Positions 15,183 to 63,710 of a DNA stretch of 64,000 nucleotides are shown here, piece after piece. This DNA comes from Chondrosia reniformis (taxonomy: Eukaryota; Porifera; Demospongiae; Chondrillida; Chondrillidae): assembly GCA_947172415.1 (NCBI GenBank), contig OX359197.1:3410001-3474000 (forward strand). Direction: 5' to 3'. Under the pieces are notes generated by a model. The model saw only the letters and a program-made list of their open reading frames with translations. It was not told the DNA's origin and did no database searches. Position numbers and translations under genes: made by a program. Each line of letters starts with the position of its first letter. Within the stretch, counting starts at the first letter, position 1.

Positions 15183-15662
15183 TTAGGCTAGGTTACTTTT
15201 TAACCTTTCAATCTGAGCCTCCCGGAGCTCACGTGCCACTCTCCTCCATTCTCTTGCACTATTTTGTGAGGGATCTGTCTTCAGCCACATTTCCGGTTCT
15301 AGTTCTATTCCGTGGCTTCTCAGTATCAATCTGGCTTCTTTCAAGACAGTCCTCCTCTGCTTTGAGCACTCCAGCCACTTTTGGTGTTTAACCACAACAG
15401 CTATGAGTGGATCATTGGCAGTATGGAGGTATCTTGCCAGATTCACAACAGCCCTGTCGTGATCCAAAGGAAAACTACAGAGCCCTCTACCACCTTGAGA
15501 GCGAGGCAAATTCACTCTTTCAATGGCAGAGTTATAGTGATGACACTGGTACTTTCTCATGATCTTTCTCACCATTCGGTCCAGTTTTGGAAGCTCACTT
15601 GAGTCCACTTCAAAACTGGGTAAGAGTATCTCAATAGAGAGGCACAAAACATGTTTTAACAT
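15183..15662 (-). pseudogene. RLE LINE, region between RT and endonuclease
   Basis: A 159-codon open segment beginning just after the RT segment stops. It contains the runs LLPSFEVDSSELPKLDRMVR and VNLPRSQGGRGLCSFPLD, typical of the thumb/connector downstream of the RT in R2-type elements (a basic helix, then a LPR.QGGRGL motif). It is shifted by one base relative to the RT frame at about 15660 and shifts again before the endonuclease part at about 15170. It has no function alone; it is a piece of the broken polyprotein. Confidence 0.8.
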
Positions 15663-16736
15663 GCTTCTGCAGCATTCTTACCATTGAGGTGAGAGCCCCA
15701 CACTTTGTGGAGTCTCCTCCTCAATTCATTGATCAAGCAAGCTTTGACCTTGCTGTCATCTACCTCAAACAGTTGTTCTAGCCCTAGGTACTTATAAGTA
15801 GTACCTTTTTCAAGGCTCCTTATGGATTCTTCACTGCATTCAGGGTTGTCTGGGCCAGCCAGAACTTTCCCCTTTTGCATGTGAGCTGTTCCACACTTTC
15901 TCACTCCAAACCTCATGCCAATGGCATTTGAGGTTTTCTCCACACATTCCATGGCTTCCCTGAGTTTATCAGGCCCTCCAGCATATATCTTAAGGTCATC
16001 CATGTACAACAAGTGTGACATGGTGTTCCTTTCCCCATCATGCCAGAGGGCATATCCCTTGGTTCTGTTAAGAACTTGGGATATGGGAGCTATGGCCAGA
16101 CAAAAGAGGAGTGGCGATAAGGAGTCTCCTTGGAAGAGTCCCCTGTTATATTTAACAGGGGTGCTCCTAACCACCTTCCCCGCAGTTCTCAACTCAAGCA
16201 CAGTAGCCCAGTGTTTGGAGAAGAGCTCTATAGACCTCCTGATCCAATCTGGGCACTTGATGGTTTTTAGCACCTTCATCACCCACTTGTGAGGGACTCT
16301 GTCATATGCCTTCTCATAATTGATCCATGCCACACTAAGTGGCTTACCCATAATTTTGGCATCTAGACCGATTGATTGATCCAGCAGTAGACAGTCCACA
16401 CAGCCCCACCTCCCTTTCCTCATGGCCCTTTGGGCCATAGGCAAAAGATCATTAGTGTAGGTGTAAGTGAGTAGTTCTGACGCAATGTATGCTGTGACAG
16501 CCTTGTACATTGTGTTGAGACACGCAATAGGTCGGTAGTTGGCCGCACTTTTCGGGTCACCCTTTTTGGGGATGAGTAGAGTGCGACCCCTTGTAAACTA
16601 GTCTGGGACTGACAGATCTCCACTCACCACCCTCCGTAGCACATCTGCCAAGGCAGACTGTGCAGAGGGGAGTGCTTTCCACCAAAAAGTGTGGATGCCA
16701 TCCGGCCCAGGGGCAGACCAGCTTTTGGCCTTTTCA
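15656..16736 (-). pseudogene. RLE LINE reverse transcriptase
   Basis: Read from about 16736, this frame gives a segment with SAPGPDGIHTFWWKALPSAQ, then GRTLLIPKKGDPKSAANYRP, then AWINYEKAYDRVPHKWV (first catalytic Asp region), GLFQGDSLSPLLFCLAIAPI, and the catalytic box LLYMDDLKIYAGG. All main RT blocks are present with catalytic residues in place. An in-frame TAG near 16594 stands where family logic expects tryptophan (VPD-stop-FTRGRT, a TGG to TAG change). A one-base frameshift near 16735 separates it from the N-terminal part, and another near 15660 from the connector. It is a recently dead gene rather than an ancient fossil, since most of the frame is still open. Confidence 0.88.
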
Positions 16737-22520: not shown

Positions 22521-23691
22521 TGTCTGGAACTTGATCAATACTCTCATTGGAAGGAAGGGGAGAGCTTTGGGCATCATTCCTGCTGATTCCCCTACTGAAC
22601 GACTTCATGGGTGGCGGAATCATTTTGAAACTCTCTTGTCATCTCCTGATTCTAATGCCACCACAATATCCTTCTCCTGGCAGCCAGTGTTTGAAGTATC
22701 CCCTCAATTTGAGCAAGATCCAATCACCATTGAGGAACTGGATTCAGCAGTGAAAGCACTCAGGACTGGTTGTGCTCCTGGCTTGGACCAAGTCACAGCT
22801 GAGTCATTGAAGTTGCCTGAGCTACGTGAATAGCTCCTCAAAGTATTCAATGCTGTTTATGCATCTGGCACAGTGTCTGAAGAATGGCACTTGAGTGCTT
22901 TGATCCCCATTCCCAAGAAAGGGGATTTGTCTATGCGAACCAACTACAGAGACATAGCCCTGATGTCCATACCTGCAAAACTGTACAATCGCATCCTTCT
23001 AAGTAGAATCTGCCGTGTCCTGAACTCCCACCTCAGACCCAACCAGAATGGTTTTCGACCACCCAGATCCACTACACAGCATGTGCTCGCACTGCGATGG
23101 CTGATAGAGGGTTGTCAGACCAAGCAGGTGAACCTTGTTATCACTTTCATTGACTTCAGAAAGGCGTTTGACTCCATCAGATGGCCAGCCCTGAACAGCA
23201 TACTGGCTGCATACGGTATCCCACAGAAGCTGAACAATGCGATAATGGCACTCTATTACGGAGCTAAGGCAGTAGTGACCACCAAAGATTGAGAGGCAGA
23301 CCCATTTGAACTATCTGCTGGGGTACTGCAAGGAGACACTCTGGCACCATACTTGTTTGTACTGGTGGTGGACTACATTTTGAGATGTGCCATACCAGAC
23401 AACACTCGCGGCTTTACCATCAGTCCACGTGTGGGTACTCGATCACGTACAACTTTCCCCGCATATGCAGTATCAGACCTGGACTTTGCGGATGACATTG
23501 CTTTGCTCTCACACAATCATGTGGACCCTCAATCTCTACTCACTGTTGTGGAACAGGAGGCTCTGCCTGCTGGTCTGAAGATCAATCGGAAGAAGACAGA
23601 GTACATGCTAGTGGGTAGCTTCAAGTGTGACCCAGGGCTAACCGTGATTGAAGGTCCCATTGCCCGTTTGGATGACTTCAAATACCTATAA
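22501..23691 (+). pseudogene. RTE-like LINE reverse transcriptase
   Basis: A single frame broken by two in-frame stops, TAG at 22831 and TGA at 23290. RT blocks in order: GCAPGLDQVTAESLKL, ALIPIPKKGDLSMRTNYRDI, NQNGFRPPRSTTQHVLALRW, VITFIDFRKAFDSIRWPALN (first catalytic Asp), SAGVLQGDTLAPYLFVLVVD, and DLDFADDIALLSHNH, the catalytic box, with both aspartates kept. The thumb begins with LKINRKKTEYMLVG and ends in a stop after DDFKYL. The protein copied element RNA into the nicked target; this copy cannot now. Confidence 0.88.
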
Positions 23692-38458: not shown

Positions 38459-38474
38459 TTAGTAGTTGTATGTA
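38443..38474. repeat. Palindrome at satellite orientation switch, left junction
   Basis: TACATACAACTACTA, two bases, then its exact reverse complement. Left of this point the satellite reads ACTAGTACATACA on the plus strand; to the right it reads TGTATGTACTAGT. Confidence 0.92.
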
Positions 38475-39479
38475 CTACTTCTATGTACTAGTTGGATGTT
38501 CCAGTTGCATGTACTAAGTGTATGTACTATTTAAATGTACTAGTTATATGTGTATGTACTAGTTATATGTACTAGTTGTATATACTAGTTGAATGTACTA
38601 GAACTAGTTATATTTACTAGTTGTAGGTACTAGTTGTATGTAGTAGTCGTATGTAGTAGTCGTATATACTAATTTTATGTACTAGTTGTGTGTACTAGTT
38701 GTATGTATATATTAGTTTTATGTAATCGTTCTATGTACTTGTAGTATGTATTAGTTTCTAGTTGTATGAAGTGGCTGTATGCACTAGTTGTGTGTACGAC
38801 TTGTATGTTCTACTTTTATGTACTAGTTGTGTGTAGTGGTTTTATGTACTCATTCTATGTACTAGTTGTAAGAACTAGTTTCTAGGTGAATGTACCAGTT
38901 GTATGTAGTAGTTGTGTGTACTAGTTGTATGTACTACTTCTATGTACTAGTTGTATGTACCAGTTGCATGTACTAAGTGTATGTACTATTTAAATGTACT
39001 AGTTATATGTGTATGTACTAGTTATATGTACTAGTTGTATATACTAGTTGAATGTACTAGAACTAGTTATATTTACTAGTTGTAGGTACTAGTTGTATGT
39101 AATAGTCGTATGTAGTAGTCGTATATACTAATTTTATGTACTACTTGTGTGTACTAGTTGTAGGTACTAGTTATGTACCAGTTGTATGTACTAGTTGTAT
39201 GTATATATTAGTTTTATGTAATCGTTCTATGTACTTGTTGTATGTATTAGTTTCTAGTTGTATGAAGTGGCTGTATGCACTAGTTGTGTGTACTAGTTGT
39301 ATGTTCTACTTTTATGTACTAGTTGTGTGTAGTGGTTTTATGTACTCATTCTATGTACTAGTTGTAAGTACTAGTTTCTAGTTGTATGTACTAGTTGTAT
39401 GTAGTAGTTGTGTACTAGTTTTATGTACTACTTCTATGTGCTAATTGTGTGTTCTAGTTGTAGTACTAGTTGTATGTAC
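38459..39479 (-). repeat. 13-bp satellite in inverted orientation, short block
   Basis: About 1 kb of satellite in reverse orientation between two palindromic junctions. Inside, 38462-38905 and 38921-39400 are two copies of one segment 459 bp apart (marker CCAGTTGCATGTACTAAGTG at 38501 and 38960). The second copy has extra monomers near 39160-39205. Confidence 0.93.
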
Positions 39480-39495
39480 TAGTACATACAACTAG
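39466..39495. repeat. Palindrome at satellite orientation switch, right junction
   Basis: A 30-bp perfect palindrome without a loop: CTAGTTGTATGTACT followed by AGTACATACAACTAG. The satellite returns to forward orientation here. Confidence 0.93.
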
Positions 39496-40105: not shown

Positions 40106-40120
40106 ACATAATGCAAACAA

Positions 40121-40499
40121 TATGAAAAAATAAGGGAACTTCAAGATCCAAAGCCGATCTTAAAGCATCGATGTCATCATCATTTAACTCTGGGTATTAC
40201 CCCTGCCCTACTATTAGTGGGGTGCCACACTTTTGGCTGTACCCATTATCTTCTGATAAGGAAGCCACAAGCTTTTATGCTTCTGGGAGTCCATATTAAC
40301 AGACAAGCCACTCAAACTTCCATCATATGCCACACTGATGAGTCCTAATAAGGACGAAACAGCTGTGTATGGCTTGACCATCTTTTTGAGTGGATATGGG
40401 TAAACACCATCAAGCGATCTTCGGTTCCACCCATTAGCTCATTGCACTCCTCAGAGGACATGAGTGAGCAGGGGTAAACCCCAGAGTTAAATGATGATA
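40121..40499 (+). mobile_element. Small hammerhead-ribozyme retroelement, copy 1
   Basis: Non-satellite insert of 379 bp, related along its length to 48062-48447. It holds a subterminal inverted repeat: ATCATCATTTAACTCTGGG near 40175 pairs with the complement of CCCCAGAGTTAAATGATGAT ending near 40498. A complete hammerhead core lies in the middle. Flanks ACATAATGCAAACAA (left) and ACATGTACAAACAA (right) are an imperfect target-site duplication, exact in copy 2. A 14-bp duplication points to retrotransposition rather than cut-and-paste. It has no coding capacity, so it is non-autonomous. Penelope-like enzymes are a plausible but unproven helper, since those elements also carry hammerheads. Confidence 0.8.
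40308..40393 (+). ncRNA. Hammerhead ribozyme, intact core (type I)
   Basis: CTGATGA at 40335-40341, stem II GTCC/GGAC (40342-40345 with 40352-40355) around loop TAATAA, and GAAA at 40356-40359. A short stem III ACA/TGT then leads to the cleavage triplet GTA, with predicted cut between 40369 and 40370. The outer stem I is closed by CCACTCAAA (40308-40316) and TTTGAGTGG (40385-40393), giving the type I arrangement found in retroelement-borne hammerheads. All invariant core bases are present. Stem III is only three pairs, but CAGCTG there is self-complementary, so two RNAs could pair to form a dimeric ribozyme. The inner part of stem I pairs imperfectly, as expected for loops that contact loop II. 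It would cut element transcripts into unit lengths. Confidence 0.88.
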
Positions 40500-41625
40500 A
40501 CATGTACAAACAAGTACTGCATATAACTAATACATACAACTAGTACATAGAACTATTACATACAACTAGTATATACAACTAGTACTACAACTAGTACATA
40601 GAACTAGCACATACAATTAGTACATACCCAGTACATACAATTAGTACATACAAGTATTACATTCAAATAGAACATACAACTAGTTCCTACAACTAGTATA
40701 TATTACTAGTACTAGAACATTCAACTCATATATAACATGTAAAAAAAGTTGTACATATAAATAATACATACAACTAGTACATACATCTAGTACTACTTAG
40801 ATTATATAAAACTACTACAAAAACTAGTACTTTTAAATGGTTTAATAAACTGTAAATACAACTAGTACATAGAACTATTACATACAACTAGTATGTACAA
40901 CTATTAAAACAGCTAGTAAATAGAAATAGCACATACAACTAGTACTACAACTAGTACATACAACTAGTACATACAACGAGTATATACAACTAGTACCTAC
41001 AACTGGTACCTACAATTAGAAACTACTTTATACAACTAGTACATATAACTAGTATATACAAGTAGTACCTACAACTAGTAAATATAACTTGTACTAGTAC
41101 ATACAATCGGTACATACAACAAGTACACACAACAAGTACATAACCAGTACACACAACTAGTGCATAGAACTAGTACTTACAACTAGTAGATATCACTTGT
41201 GCCTACAATTAATACATATTACTAAAACATACACATATAAATAGTAAATATAAATAATAAATATAAAGAGTACATACAACTAGTACATACATTTAGTACA
41301 TTAAAGTAGAAATACACCCACATCTTTGAACTATTACTAACAACTAGTACATACATCTAGGACTCACAACTAGTACTTTAATTAGTAAATAGAATTAGTA
41401 AAAACAACTGGTGTATACAACTAGTACATATAGTTAGAACATACAACTGGTACATAACTAGTACATACAATTAATACATACAACTAGTACATACAACTGG
41501 TACATAACTAGAAGATATAACTAGTACATACAACTAGTACATATAATTAGTACATACAACTCTTACATTCAACTAGTACATACAACTAGTACCTACAACA
41601 TGTACAAACAAGTCGTACAGAGAAA
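40500..41625 (+). repeat. 13-bp satellite, block 9
   Basis: Forward array between the hammerhead element and the Tigger element. The first 13 bases contain the right target-site duplication of the hammerhead element. No gene is seen. Confidence 0.93.
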
Positions 41626-42200: not shown

Positions 42201-42596
42201 CTATGACACAAGTCCAGATGATATTAATGAGTCCACTAATTCCTTCATCTTATCTATGTAAGGCTTCGGTCTGTAAAGATGATATATACATGGGATTTCA
42301 AGTCCATATCCAGCTCCTCTGTTAACTTTCTCTCCAACAACATTGGCAAATGCCTTGTTAATGTCTCTCATAAAGAGTGAAATACTGGGGGCTAGGTTGA
42401 AAGGAACATGACCAACCGATTGATCTTCTTTGTATACTGCTACAGCATTTTTATCAGCTACATTTGTAGGTTCATGTTTCAGAATCGGCATTTCATCTTG
42501 AACTGGTGTCCATAGTTCCATGTATACATGATAGCCTCTTACATATGAGCTAATTTGTAAAAGGTTAAGATGTTCACCTACAATTTGACTCGCCAT
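42201..42596 (-). CDS. HIRAN-domain protein carried by the Tigger element
   Basis: Intact 131-residue frame starting MASQIVGEHL. Residues about 17-100 fit the HIRAN domain: a start around SSYVRGYHVYMELWTP, then EPTNVADKNAVAVYKED and SVGHVPFNLAPSISLF, matching the family pattern of P.N..DKNA.AV followed by VGH...LA. In HLTF-type helicases HIRAN binds the 3' end of single-stranded DNA, but no helicase or other enzyme domain is attached here. The rest (GAGYGLEIPCIYHLYRPKPY, then a short C-terminal helix) is not a domain I recognise. It lies wholly inside the transposon, pointing away from the transposase with about 97 bp between the two starts, so a shared bidirectional promoter is likely. A helper role at DNA ends or junctions during transposition is inference. 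It could instead be a captured host gene. Confidence 0.82.
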   Translation of the reverse strand: MASQIVGEHLNLLQISSYVRGYHVYMELWTPVQDEMPILKHEPTNVADKNAVAVYKEDQSVGHVPFNLAPSISLFMRDINKAFANVVGEKVNRGAGYGLEIPCIYHLYRPKPYIDKMKELVDSLISSGLVS

Positions 42597-42693
42597 TTTA
42601 TTATGCTAATTTAGCAATCTGCATTAAAAACCGTAATATTTTGATTGAGATAGCTGCATGTAAAACCATGTGGTTGCTAATTTGAGCTTAAGT
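42597..42693. promoter_or_regulatory. Likely bidirectional promoter of the Tigger element
   Basis: The 97 bp between the divergent starts of the HIRAN gene and the transposase are AT-rich and hold no other feature. Their position alone argues for promoter function; I see no clear core promoter motif. Confidence 0.4.
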
Positions 42694-44270
42694 ATGGCTT
42701 CAAGAGCAAGTGCTAGTGGCTCACAGAAGAGGAAGTATTTATCATTAGAGAAGAAGGTAGAAGTTATCAAGCATTTACAGAAGAATCATGGAACATCTAT
42801 CAGAACTCTTGGGGAAATCTTTGAATGTGGAAAAACAAAGATTGCCTATATCCTTAAGAACAAAAAATCAATACTATCTCTTTACCAGGCTAATACTTCA
42901 GGCAGTAGAATTTATACAGGGAAGTCTCGCACATCAGAGTATGTTGAAGTCAATGATACTCTCTACAAATGGTTCACTCTTGCTTGCTCTAAGAATATTT
43001 ATCCCGGAGGGCTAGAATTAATGGAGAAGGCTAAAGAGGTTGCAGAAAAGCTAGGGAAACCAGATTTCAAAGGCTTTAGGGGATGGTTAGATAAGTGGAA
43101 GAAGAGGTACAATGTGAAGCAGTTGAGAAATTGTGGGGAGTCTGGTGATGTGCAAGGAGAAACGGTAGAATCTTGGAAGGAAAGAATCCCAGAAATTGTT
43201 CAAGGGTATGAAAAAGAAGATATATGGAGCATGGATGAAACGGGCATATTTTGGTGTGCTTTACCAGAACATGGATTTGGCCAGAAGAGTAGAAGCTGTA
43301 AAGGAGGGAAAAAAAGCAAGCAGCGTATCACAGTTGCCTTTTTGTATCTGCATCAGGTCAAAAAGAGAAACCTGTTGTCATCTGGAAATCTGACAATCCT
43401 AGATATATGAAAAATTTTGATAAATCTTCTTTGCCAGTTTGTTATTTCAGCCAAAGAAAAGCATGGATGACTGGAGAAATACTAGAAGCTATTTTAACCC
43501 AGTTGAATTGCCGCTTGTCCAGCTCAAACCGCAAAATTTTGCTCCTTATGGATAATGCAGGCTGTCACCCAGGCGATTTGTCTGTAAAATTCTCCAACAT
43601 CAAGATTTGCTTTCTACCACCAAAAACAACCTCAACTCTGCAGCCTTTGGACCTAGGAATAATTCAAAATTTCAAGGTCCATTATCGTCGATATTTTTTG
43701 AGATATGTTCTCTCAAATATTGATGAGTGTGATTCGGCTTCTGATGTTGTAAAATCAGTCAACATATTGGTCACAATCAGATGGGTTGCTCTAGCATGGT
43801 CTCAAGTAACAGCTGAAACCATAACAAAATGTTTTAGAATGGCAGGCATCTTGGACATGGGGTTGGATGTGGTCTACCGTGGAATTGAAGATGATTTGGA
43901 GGCTGATAAACGCATGGAATTGCAAACTCTAATAGAACAAACTGGTTGTGAAGGCTGTACTGTAGATCAGTTTTTGACTGGTGATAGTGATCTTCCTGTG
44001 TGCATGGAAATGGACGATGACAATTGGGAAGCAGCATTCCTTGAAGAGCTTGAGGAACATCAGCAAGTAGAAGATTGTGGACAAGTAGATGGAAATAGTG
44101 ATGCTGAGGATGACTCTACTGCTAACACAGAAGAGCCCCTTCCCAAGTTGAAGACATACAAGGAAGTGTCCCAATTTTTGGAATATAAAGGACATGGAGA
44201 TGAAGCCTTATCTATTGGTTCCACAATTGAGAGGATTGTGAACCTAAAGCACACTTTGCAAGACAGGTAA
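42694..44270 (+). pseudogene. Tigger/pogo transposase with one frameshift
   Basis: The start MASRASASGSQKRKYLSLEK is preferred because the basic psq-type helix-turn-helix follows at once (residues about 12-60, with TSIRTLGEIFECGKTKIAYI). A CENP-B-type second HTH follows at about 86-145 (KWFTLACSKNIYPGG to FKGFRGWLDKWKKRYNV). The DDE domain has its first Asp in WSMDETGIFW (residue 181), the second in LLLMDNAGCHPGDL and the third in TLQPLDLGII, with 32 residues between the last two, as in pogo elements. The frame shifts by one base near 43338-43345, in a T-run where AFF becomes AFL. Apart from that the protein runs to the acidic tail and the stop at 44270. It would cut the element out and reinsert it at TA. 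As it stands it cannot make an active enzyme. Confidence 0.93.
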
Positions 44271-48047: not shown

Positions 48048-48061
48048 ACATGTACAAACAA

Positions 48062-48447
48062 TATGGAAAAAATTGGGGAACTACAAGATCTAAAGTTGAT
48101 CTTAAACCATCGATGTCATCATCATTTAACTCTGGGTATTACCCCTGCCCTACTATTAGTGGGCTGCCACACTTTTGGCTGTACCCTTTATCTGCTGATA
48201 AGGAAACCACAGGCTTTTTTGCTTCTGGGAGTCCATATTAGCAGACTAGCCACTCAAACTTCCATCATATGCCACACTGATGAGTCCTAATAAGGACAAA
48301 ACAGCTGTGTATGGCTTGACCATCTTTTTGAGTGGCTAGGGGGAAACTATGGTTCCCATAAAGCAAACTTTGGTTCCGTCCATTAACTCATTGCGCTCCT
48401 CAAGGGACATGAGTGGACGGGGTAAAACCCAGAGTTAAATGATGATG
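48062..48447 (+). mobile_element. Small hammerhead-ribozyme retroelement, copy 2
   Basis: A 386-bp insert matching 40121-40499 throughout. It is flanked by the exact 14-bp direct repeat ACATGTACAAACAA at 48048-48061 and 48448-48461, which defines both ends of the element. The satellite on both sides also matches that around copy 1, so the two copies probably arose by one insertion followed by block duplication (offset about 7.94 kb). Differences from copy 1 are scattered substitutions and small indels, one of which hits the ribozyme core. Confidence 0.85.
48250..48335 (+). ncRNA. Hammerhead ribozyme with mutated core (G12 to A)
   Basis: Same layout as 40308-40393: CTGATGA at 48277-48283, stem II GTCC/GGAC, stem I closed by CCACTCAAA and TTTGAGTGG. 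The GAAA segment reads AAAA because the base at 48298 is A. That base is G12, the general base of the reaction, and known hammerheads lose nearly all activity without it. The RNA should fold but not cleave. Confidence 0.85.
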
Positions 48448-48461
48448 ACATGTACAAACAA

Positions 48462-54149: not shown

Positions 54150-55158
54150 AAGAGTCAAAAGCCACCCAGCCTCCTGGATTTCTCAGCCTATCAGACGTGA
54201 AATGGACAAACGTAATAAGCTACTTAAACCCTTCCGTTCTAACCGATCCAATCAAAACTGGCAACAGTACAGGACCCAAAGAAATTTCGTCACCAACTTG
54301 CAGAGACAAGCCAAACAATCCCATTTTGCTCACCTCATTTCCAATAACACTTATCCATCCACTCTTTGGAGGGCTCTGAAGGCTGCCAAACCTCTTCAGT
54401 CTTCACATAAGTGGAACGCATTTGGCTCTACCTACCAGTCCATTGCAGATAAATTCAATGTTCACTTTACCTCCATCTCCAGCTGTGCCTGCACCACTCT
54501 ATCAGACCTATATCAACCTTCTACTCCTTCCTCAAATCCACCCACCTCAGTTTTGTCACCAACCCCTGAAGACTAGTGTAAATCACCTCTCTCAGGACTA
54601 AACATCAGCAAAGGGACTGGCTCTGATGGAATACCTGCTTTCATGCTCAAGCTAGCTTCTTCAGTTATCATGAAGCCCATCTGCTCCATCTTCAACCATT
54701 CTATCCAAACTTCCACCTTTCCAACTACATGGAAGCATGCCATTGTCCACCTTCTCCACAAAGGTGGTGATCCTTCCAGCCTCTCCAATTACCGTCCTAT
54801 ATCTATCCTACCTGCTTGCAGCAAGGTCCTTGAAAGGCATGTAAAACATCAGTTATATCGTCATCTTTCTGAGAATGGCCTTATCTATCCATTGCAATCC
54901 AGTTTTCACCCTGGCCACTCCACCACCACATCTTTGTTATTTTGTACCGATACTTGGTCCAAAGCCCTTGATTCTGGGAAGTTTGTAGCCACTCTGTTCA
55001 TCGACGTGTCTAAAACCTTTGACACAGTAAATCACTCACTTCTTCTGAGCAAACTCACCAACCTGGGTCTTGATCCATCTACTGTGCAAAGGTTTAGATC
55101 CTACCTAGCCAACCGTTCCCAGTCCACTCATATGGAAGGTCACACCTCTACCTCTTGA
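54150..55158 (+). pseudogene. CR1/L2-like LINE reverse transcriptase, first part
   Basis: One frame with an in-frame TAG at 54574-54576. Contains GTGSDGIPAFMLKLASSVIM, WKHAIVHLLHKGGDPSSLSN with YRPISILPACSKVLERHV, QSSFHPGHSTTTSLLF, and VATLFIDVSKTFDTVNHSLL holding the first catalytic Asp. These are RT blocks in the correct order. The segment ends at a TGA at 55156-55158, just before SSGVPQESILG, which would be the G-P-Q-G block; the usual Gly there is Glu. Confidence 0.86.
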
Positions 55159-63338: not shown

Positions 63339-63710
63339 TACCATTTTCCTACATGCTATATGCCTATTCAGTAAAAAGAGCCTATAGGGGAACTAAACCT
63401 AAAGAGAGCTTTAGATGAAGATGCAGGAGTCTTTTCTTCCTTCTTTCCCCTTCTTTCATCTTCTTCTCCACTGGGTCAGACAGCCGTTTCTGGGAATTCC
63501 ACCCTTCATCAGTGATCCTGGGAGTTTTTGTTTTTTCTTTATCTTTTTCTTTATCTTGATCTTCTGTGAATCCTTGGCTCTCTATGCTAAATCTAGGGGC
63601 CTTATATACACTATCTTGGCGCCAACAGTTAAATAAGGTGTTAACTAAGACACATGATGAAATTTAATTTTATGAAAAGAATGTAGGTCCAATTAACTTT
63701 TATGAATTAA
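63339..63710. other. Non-satellite region without recognisable gene
   Basis: Mixed-composition DNA with a pyrimidine-rich stretch at about 63430-63560 (TTTCTTTATC repeats). A 73-codon plus-strand frame there is low-complexity and not convincing. It may be the 3' flank or untranslated part of whatever encodes the frame at 63711-63989. Confidence 0.45.

Follow-up and report, generated by a model that had tools for sequence, protein, structure and literature searches.

A decayed type I hammerhead retroelement in satellite DNA of the sponge Chondrosia reniformis and the probable Penelope-mediated life cycle of its family

The window, a stretch of 64,000 nucleotides from contig C9 (chromosome 9) of the Chondrosia reniformis assembly (117.4 Mb in 15 contigs), consists for much of its length of a 13-bp satellite, in which two copies of a small element are embedded. 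Between the satellite stretches lie pieces of reverse transcriptase domains, at 15656-16597 (-), 22834-23292 (+) and 54577-55158 (+). A pogo/Tc5-like transposase occupies two overlapping frames at 42664-44270 (+), with Tc5/CENP-B DNA-binding and DDE_1 domains, and a 134-aa ORF at 42201-42605 (-) has a match to the HIRAN domain (27.4 bits). The satellite runs in the opposite orientation (TAGTTGTATGTAC) at 38463-39483, and the GC skew flips at 50-52 kb. The features of the two element copies are given below in window coordinates; reference coordinates of the element are those of the L022 unit.

40106..40120, + strand: left target-site duplication, diverged, ACATAATGCAAACAA (by reading and comparison with other satellite copies)
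40124..40208, - strand: inverted left arm by BLAST against the L022 unit, with the 3' region reversed as far as the long 3' end (reference 145-235)
40212..40498, + strand: main unit by BLAST against the L022 unit (reference 238-349, then 1-177)
40308..40316, + strand: 5' strand of the outer stem, CCACTCAAA, pairing with 40385-40393
40329..40373, + strand: type I hammerhead, predicted inactive (RF00163 match and family alignment)
40385..40393, + strand: 3' strand of the outer stem, TTTGAGTGG, pairing with 40308-40316
40500..40513, + strand: right target-site duplication, ACATGTACAAACAA (by reading and comparison with other satellite copies)
48048..48061, + strand: second copy, left target-site duplication, exact, ACATGTACAAACAA
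48062..48448, + strand: second copy, read as the same original insertion (inverted arm 48062-48150)
48271..48315, + strand: second copy, hammerhead with G12 to A and C17 to G, predicted to be inactive
48448..48461, + strand: second copy, right target-site duplication, exact

The first-pass annotation had placed a type I hammerhead in a small retroelement within satellite DNA, and in this respect it is supported. The core that it had read is present at 40335-40359: CTGATGA at 40335-40341, stem II formed by GTCC (40342-40345) and GGAC (40352-40355) around the loop TAATAA (40346-40351), and GAAA at 40356-40359. The 9-bp outer stem was confirmed as well, at the positions listed. The palindrome CAGCTG (40360-40365) gives a stem III of three pairs with no loop, which points to a dimeric family ribozyme, as had been proposed; stem I has its 3' strand in TATGGC at 40368-40373. 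The search with a covariance model that the annotation had suggested gave for this copy a match at 40329-40373 below the threshold (RF00163, E 4.4e-5 in 461 nt; 28.7 bits, where the gathering score is 34), an outcome that the annotation had named as refuting, and Rfam at gathering score found no match in the whole window. Nevertheless, the signal is more than chance, judging from this E-value and from the counts of a generalised core pattern, which occurs in the genome at 253+246 places with at most two mismatches while its backward control gives none. The copy ends in an inverted repeat (40171-40206 and 40468-40503) whose 36-nt arms are 92% complementary.

The same model does succeed with the wider family. 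At least 73 places of the genome were scored with RF00163, from 11921 first-look candidates, and 51 of them exceeded the cut-off; matches at E up to 10 were found in 11 of 14 control genomes, none over the cut-off. The family core is present at 133+110 places with at most two mismatches (among 100 places listed, 67 exact and 33 with one mismatch), and a pattern scan of IMG/VR gave no match. The dispersed copies have a 354-bp unit and are arranged in tandem, with a spacing of 350-355 bp, and head to head. In an alignment of 89 copies from the fetched loci, which includes the window copies and one row, C1_1210341, that is not hammerhead-like, the commonest 45-mer reads GCCATA, CTGATGA, GTCC, TAATAA, GGAC, GAAA, CAG, CTG, TC and TATGGC in succession. 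The dispersed family has the core, the NUH triplet and the paired stems I-III of a type I hammerhead. Sister families with a stem II of GCCC/GGGC also exist, two of them as tetramers with units of 359-362 bp; these tetramers lie at C4:3837454-3838563 and C7:2773361-2774477 and have a 33-base core in common.

Several observations bear on the structure of the family ribozyme. Changes that fit the pairing occur in stem I (G-C to A-U, U-A to C-G) and in stem II (U-A to C-G), and the outer stem, helix 1, is paired in 78% of the alignment cells. Covariation goes beyond shuffling only partly: the ten cells changed on both sides were equalled in 3 of 500 shuffles and the covariation score in 24 of 500, whereas the four pairs changed on both sides were equalled in 258 of 500 and the further pair types in 500 of 500. 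Relative to the majority sequence, dispersed copies differ less in the ribozyme (9/990) than in the tail downstream of it (71/2747; p 0.0012). Since stem III has no loop, the dimer is likely to be the active form. The predicted folding of the family copy L017 is -74.7 for the dimer against -69.2 for two monomers, but the window copy behaves alike (-61.3 against -54.6), and folding energy does not separate the two.

The flanks and edges of the insertions carry the marks of their integration. Forty-five insertions were entered in a direct-repeat test, of which three with short flanks were dropped and 42, two of them satellite copies, were used. Exact direct repeats of at least 10 bp were found at the ends of 18 of the 42, against 1.15% of mispaired flanks, and of at least 8 bp in 24, against 3.7%; it must be taken into account in these counts that C9:5223 and C9:5254 resemble a single insertion that was duplicated and that C8:2970 and C8:3094 have a common left flank. 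The ends were analysed in 44 dispersed insertions, with three at the edge of the fetched stretches and pieces shorter than 150 bp omitted, and in 30 of them 3' ends point outward on both sides. With 3' ends sorted into a short class (reference 174-190) and a long class (228-246), defined after viewing the BLAST of the copies, both outer ends of 19 of the 44 insertions fell into the classes: 18 paired short with long, one long with long and none short with short (p 4e-5; p 7e-5 without one of a near-identical pair). In the other 25 the two ends were not both in the classes, and 14 of these had a 5' edge outward. Moreover, among the first 100 of 499 places of the retrozyme core pattern, adjacent pairs on opposite strands were head-to-head in ten cases and tail-to-tail in none, with 12 same-strand pairs. 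The retrozyme insertions have the arrangement of a Penelope-type integration, in which an inverted copy is joined head to head and one of the two outer ends bears a tail.

Penelope-like elements are present in the same genome. In the L089 locus the end of a second copy is followed by a 761-aa ORF that joins RVT_1 (40.4 bits) and GIY-YIG in one frame, as expected for such an element; the GIY-YIG match scored 22.2 bits (E 1.8e-4), slightly below the cut-off of 22.6, and exceeded it with 25.9 bits in the genome search. Between the ORF and the end of the second copy a minimal hammerhead was found by eye (GTCA-CTGAGGA-A-GACC..GGTC-GAAA-CG-TT-TGAC), of a kind known from Penelope elements (PMC6155905); Rfam, at E up to 5, gave no match to it in L089. 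Counted as a pattern with at most three mismatches, it has 355+376 places in the genome and none in the control. Adjacent opposite-strand pairs of this hammerhead, in the first 100 of 731 places, were head-to-head 23 times and never tail-to-tail (seven same-strand). Among 47 matches to the Penelope 3' region there were 15 head-to-head, two tail-to-tail and one same-strand pairs, both exceptions belonging to one array on C6. Four pairs of a hammerhead and a GIY-YIG match lay within 10 kb, where 1.9 were expected; this is about chance and we do not take such nearness as evidence. The RVT_1 places (150 scored of 1688 candidates) yielded no adjacent pairs under 5 kb in any orientation, and for this reason the list is a weak control.

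The 3' ends of the Penelope copies lie near L089 positions 657 or 693-694, which corresponds to a 37-nt tail; a 30-mer of this tail has 13 places in the genome and was too specific. Exactly one long-end member was listed for 12 of 13 simple head-to-head pairs and none for the other, but the long-end list is the best 40 of 1556 candidates, so that for 9 of these 12 pairs it is absence from the list that suggests a short end. Two further pairs within these best 40 of 1556 have one long and one short end, and both ends were seen directly in three pairs, the L089 locus included. In Penelope-like elements the tail has been described as an extension that one of the inverted copies may carry (PMC3846280), and it corresponds to the stretch between two start sites of reverse transcription, with a protein that cuts and extends both target strands (PMC11167929). 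As the retrozyme ends match this published signature and the Penelope copies of the sponge share the geometry, we link the two and regard the family as a metazoan retrozyme that was probably moved by Penelope machinery.

A different reverse transcriptase, that of a LINE, might instead have moved the retrozyme, the head-to-head copies being products of twin priming. The genome has many RVT_1 matches, reverse transcriptase pieces occur within the window itself, and the target-site duplications of 8-14 bp in the retrozyme would also suit LINEs. Twin priming is known for LINEs, but two fixed 3' ends at the outer edges are not expected from it, and one short and one long outer 3' end are paired in 18 of the 19 classed retrozyme insertions. 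Since Penelope copies of the same genome do have the short and long ends, we consider mobilisation by a LINE rather unlikely.

Much less probable is a miniature inverted-repeat (foldback) DNA transposon in which a hammerhead arose by chance and the arms are the ends bound by the transposase. The complementary arms that close the window copy, the target-site duplications and the Tc5/CENP-B-type transposase nearby would agree with it. In the dispersed insertions, on the other hand, the terminal inverted repeats are neither fixed nor matching: arm length and inner junction vary, the outer ends are unequal, and 14 of the 44 have no second outward 3' end, while tandem units of 350-355 bp exist. On account of the variable arms and unequal ends we reject this explanation.

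Element copies in satellite stretches number 24, on C7, C9, C12 and C14. In 23 of them reference 145 marks the end of the inverted arm, and the main unit starts from 238-243; the 24th, C7:4174, matched the main unit alone. Flanks were compared for nine satellite copies: the right duplication is ACATGTACAAACAA in eight, and C7:4116 begins further out, while the left one is exact in two, has one change in one (C7:3318) and is diverged to ACATAATGCAAACAA in six. Beyond the duplication, the left flank of C7:3589 is another repeat. Because the arm junction is the same in 23 of the 24 copies and the nine share their flanks, we read all 24 as descendants of one insertion that spread with the satellite.

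The ribozyme has fared differently in the two settings. In a single similarity list (40 scored of 746 candidates), from which copies were not chosen by ribozyme score, the hammerhead core was intact in 5 of 24 satellite copies and in 20 of 22 dispersed ones (Fisher 1.5e-6, relatedness ignored), and both an intact core and fully paired stems were found in none of the 24 against 15 of the 22 (Fisher 3.3e-7, relatedness ignored). In another 43 dispersed copies, which came mostly from the ribozyme search, the core was intact in 39; among the 23 satellite sisters of the window copy it was broken in 18. Ribozymes carried in the satellite thus decay, in contrast to those of the dispersed family, which stay conserved. 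One satellite copy, C9:3266365, nevertheless scores above the RF00163 cut-off at 34.4 bits. One might still suppose that the hammerhead was retained because it serves the satellite itself, for instance in the processing of satellite transcripts. The 24 copies did multiply with the satellite, and differences from the group majority are slightly fewer in the 45-nt ribozyme (44/1080) than in the downstream tail (168/2970; p 0.046). The core, however, is no better conserved than the tail (p 0.51) and is broken in 19 of the 24; we reject a function maintained by the satellite and give this explanation hardly any weight. The window copy most likely travels with the satellite as a passenger.

The window copy differs from the commonest 45-mer of the family at two positions. 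C17 is changed to G at 40367, just 5' of the cut, and turns the family triplet GTC (40365-40367) into GTG, which is outside the NUH rule; a T to C change at 40333 leaves stem I as GCCACA/TATGGC with one C.A mismatch. The ribozyme had earlier been called intact, which these changes contradict, and its GTA triplet came from a register slip of two bases, as the 89-copy alignment places the triplet at 40365-40367. In the register of the family the cut would be at 40367/40368 instead of 40369/40370. A GUG triplet has been reported as not cleaved, the G mutants of ten designed hammerheads remaining uncut (PMC4191386; the NUH rule is also given in PMC2238771), and on this basis we predict that the ribozyme of the window copy is decayed and inactive. 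Activity in the GTA register, where GUA is an allowed NUH triplet and two pairs of stem III might close a GCTG loop, is scarcely credible and is rejected on the family alignment and the folds: two unpaired bases would be left between stem I and the core, 88 aligned rows have the triplet two bases earlier, and the minimum-energy folds of the window copy contain no hammerhead, as is also the case for the L017 monomer.

In the second copy the additional change affects G12, described as the general base of the hammerhead (PMC6155905). The junction of stem II and G12 (40355-40356 in the window) is the sole CpG of the 33-base family core, and among the 33 listed places with one mismatch it has become TG in five and CA in nine (14 of 33). 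The change of G12 to A is found in 13 of the 24 satellite copies, partly by descent. Decay of this CpG may be a common route of death for the family ribozyme.

Taken as a whole, the feature in the window is, in our judgement, quite likely a decayed non-autonomous type I hammerhead retroelement, a metazoan retrozyme, whose family has a Penelope-mediated life cycle. Tandem transcripts of the family would be cleaved after GUC into units of 354 nt, which may then form circles; as the CAG/CTG of stem III has no loop, cleavage would probably take place in dimers. Next, a Penelope-like RT/GIY-YIG protein would cut both strands of the target and start reverse transcription about 140 nt or 195-200 nt downstream of the site of ribozyme cleavage. 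Head-to-head joining of the two cDNAs would turn a short and a long 3' end outward, and integration would duplicate about 8-14 bp of the target site. The window copy would stem from an insertion of this kind in the 13-bp satellite, and would later have been multiplied with the satellite and have lost its ribozyme function. Motif, mutations, family, copy geometry, duplications and the common insertion are read from the sequence, while cleavage, circles, the Penelope helper and the inactivity of this copy are inferred.

We lean slightly towards a further proposal, that the sponge retrozymes are minimal Penelope satellites for which a hammerhead and two reverse-transcription start sites of Penelope type suffice for mobilisation in trans, the pairing of short and long 3' ends being a fossil of priming on both cut target strands. 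Against the Penelope link, no sequence common to the retrozyme and the Penelope element was identified, and their tails differ in length, with about 55-60 nt in the retrozyme against 37 nt in the Penelope element of this genome and 30-40 nt in published ones (PMC3846280, PMC11167929). PMC7229834 already names Penelope-like elements as strong candidates for moving animal retrozymes, on account of their common type I hammerheads, tandem copies and co-occurrence. If true, the minimal-satellite proposal would name the machinery that moves them, and as both partners occur in one genome with a common positional signature of integration, the question of the mover becomes testable in vitro. The interest thus lies in the family and its ends rather than in the window copy.

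In the sequence features examined, the sponge family is like the non-LTR retrozymes of metazoans as described in PMC7229834: a type I hammerhead in tandem repeats within 150-450 bp (354 bp here), GC below 50% (45% in the L022 unit), target-site duplications longer than 4 bp, and Penelope elements in the same genome. It is unlike them in its sponge host and in being known from DNA sequence alone; moreover, the word 'inverted' is absent from the main text of that paper, whereas the sponge family has head-to-head arms with short and long 3' ends. With Penelope-like elements, as presented in PMC3846280 and PMC11167929, it has in common the head-to-head inverted copy on the 5' side, the optional tail at one end, partial tandems, short target-site duplications and a type I hammerhead near the ends, but no ORF was seen by eye in its 354 bp and its hammerhead is fuller, with a 3-bp stem III. 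The satellite hammerheads of newt, schistosome and cave cricket are likewise type I and lie in repetitive DNA; according to PMC6155905 and PMC4918200, the hammerhead there belongs to the tandem repeat itself, unlike the 13-bp sponge satellite, which is unrelated to the element and holds copies of one old insertion. A literature search covering a minority of the subscription papers found no report of hammerhead ribozymes in Porifera or Amphimedon, with or without a retrotransposon, nor, judged mostly from listings, of retrozymes in sponges; PMC7761336 and PMC4918200 have the latter word in titles of references.

A second hammerhead-like motif lies in the window at 63479-63512 (-), and it occurs also in L002, L026 and L051, as part of another dispersed repeat. 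Neither the window motif nor these copies gave an Rfam hammerhead match at E 5 or less. The motif reads CTGATGA..GAAA-CGGCTG-TC, with five of the six pairs of stem I formed and A/A at the base of stem II.
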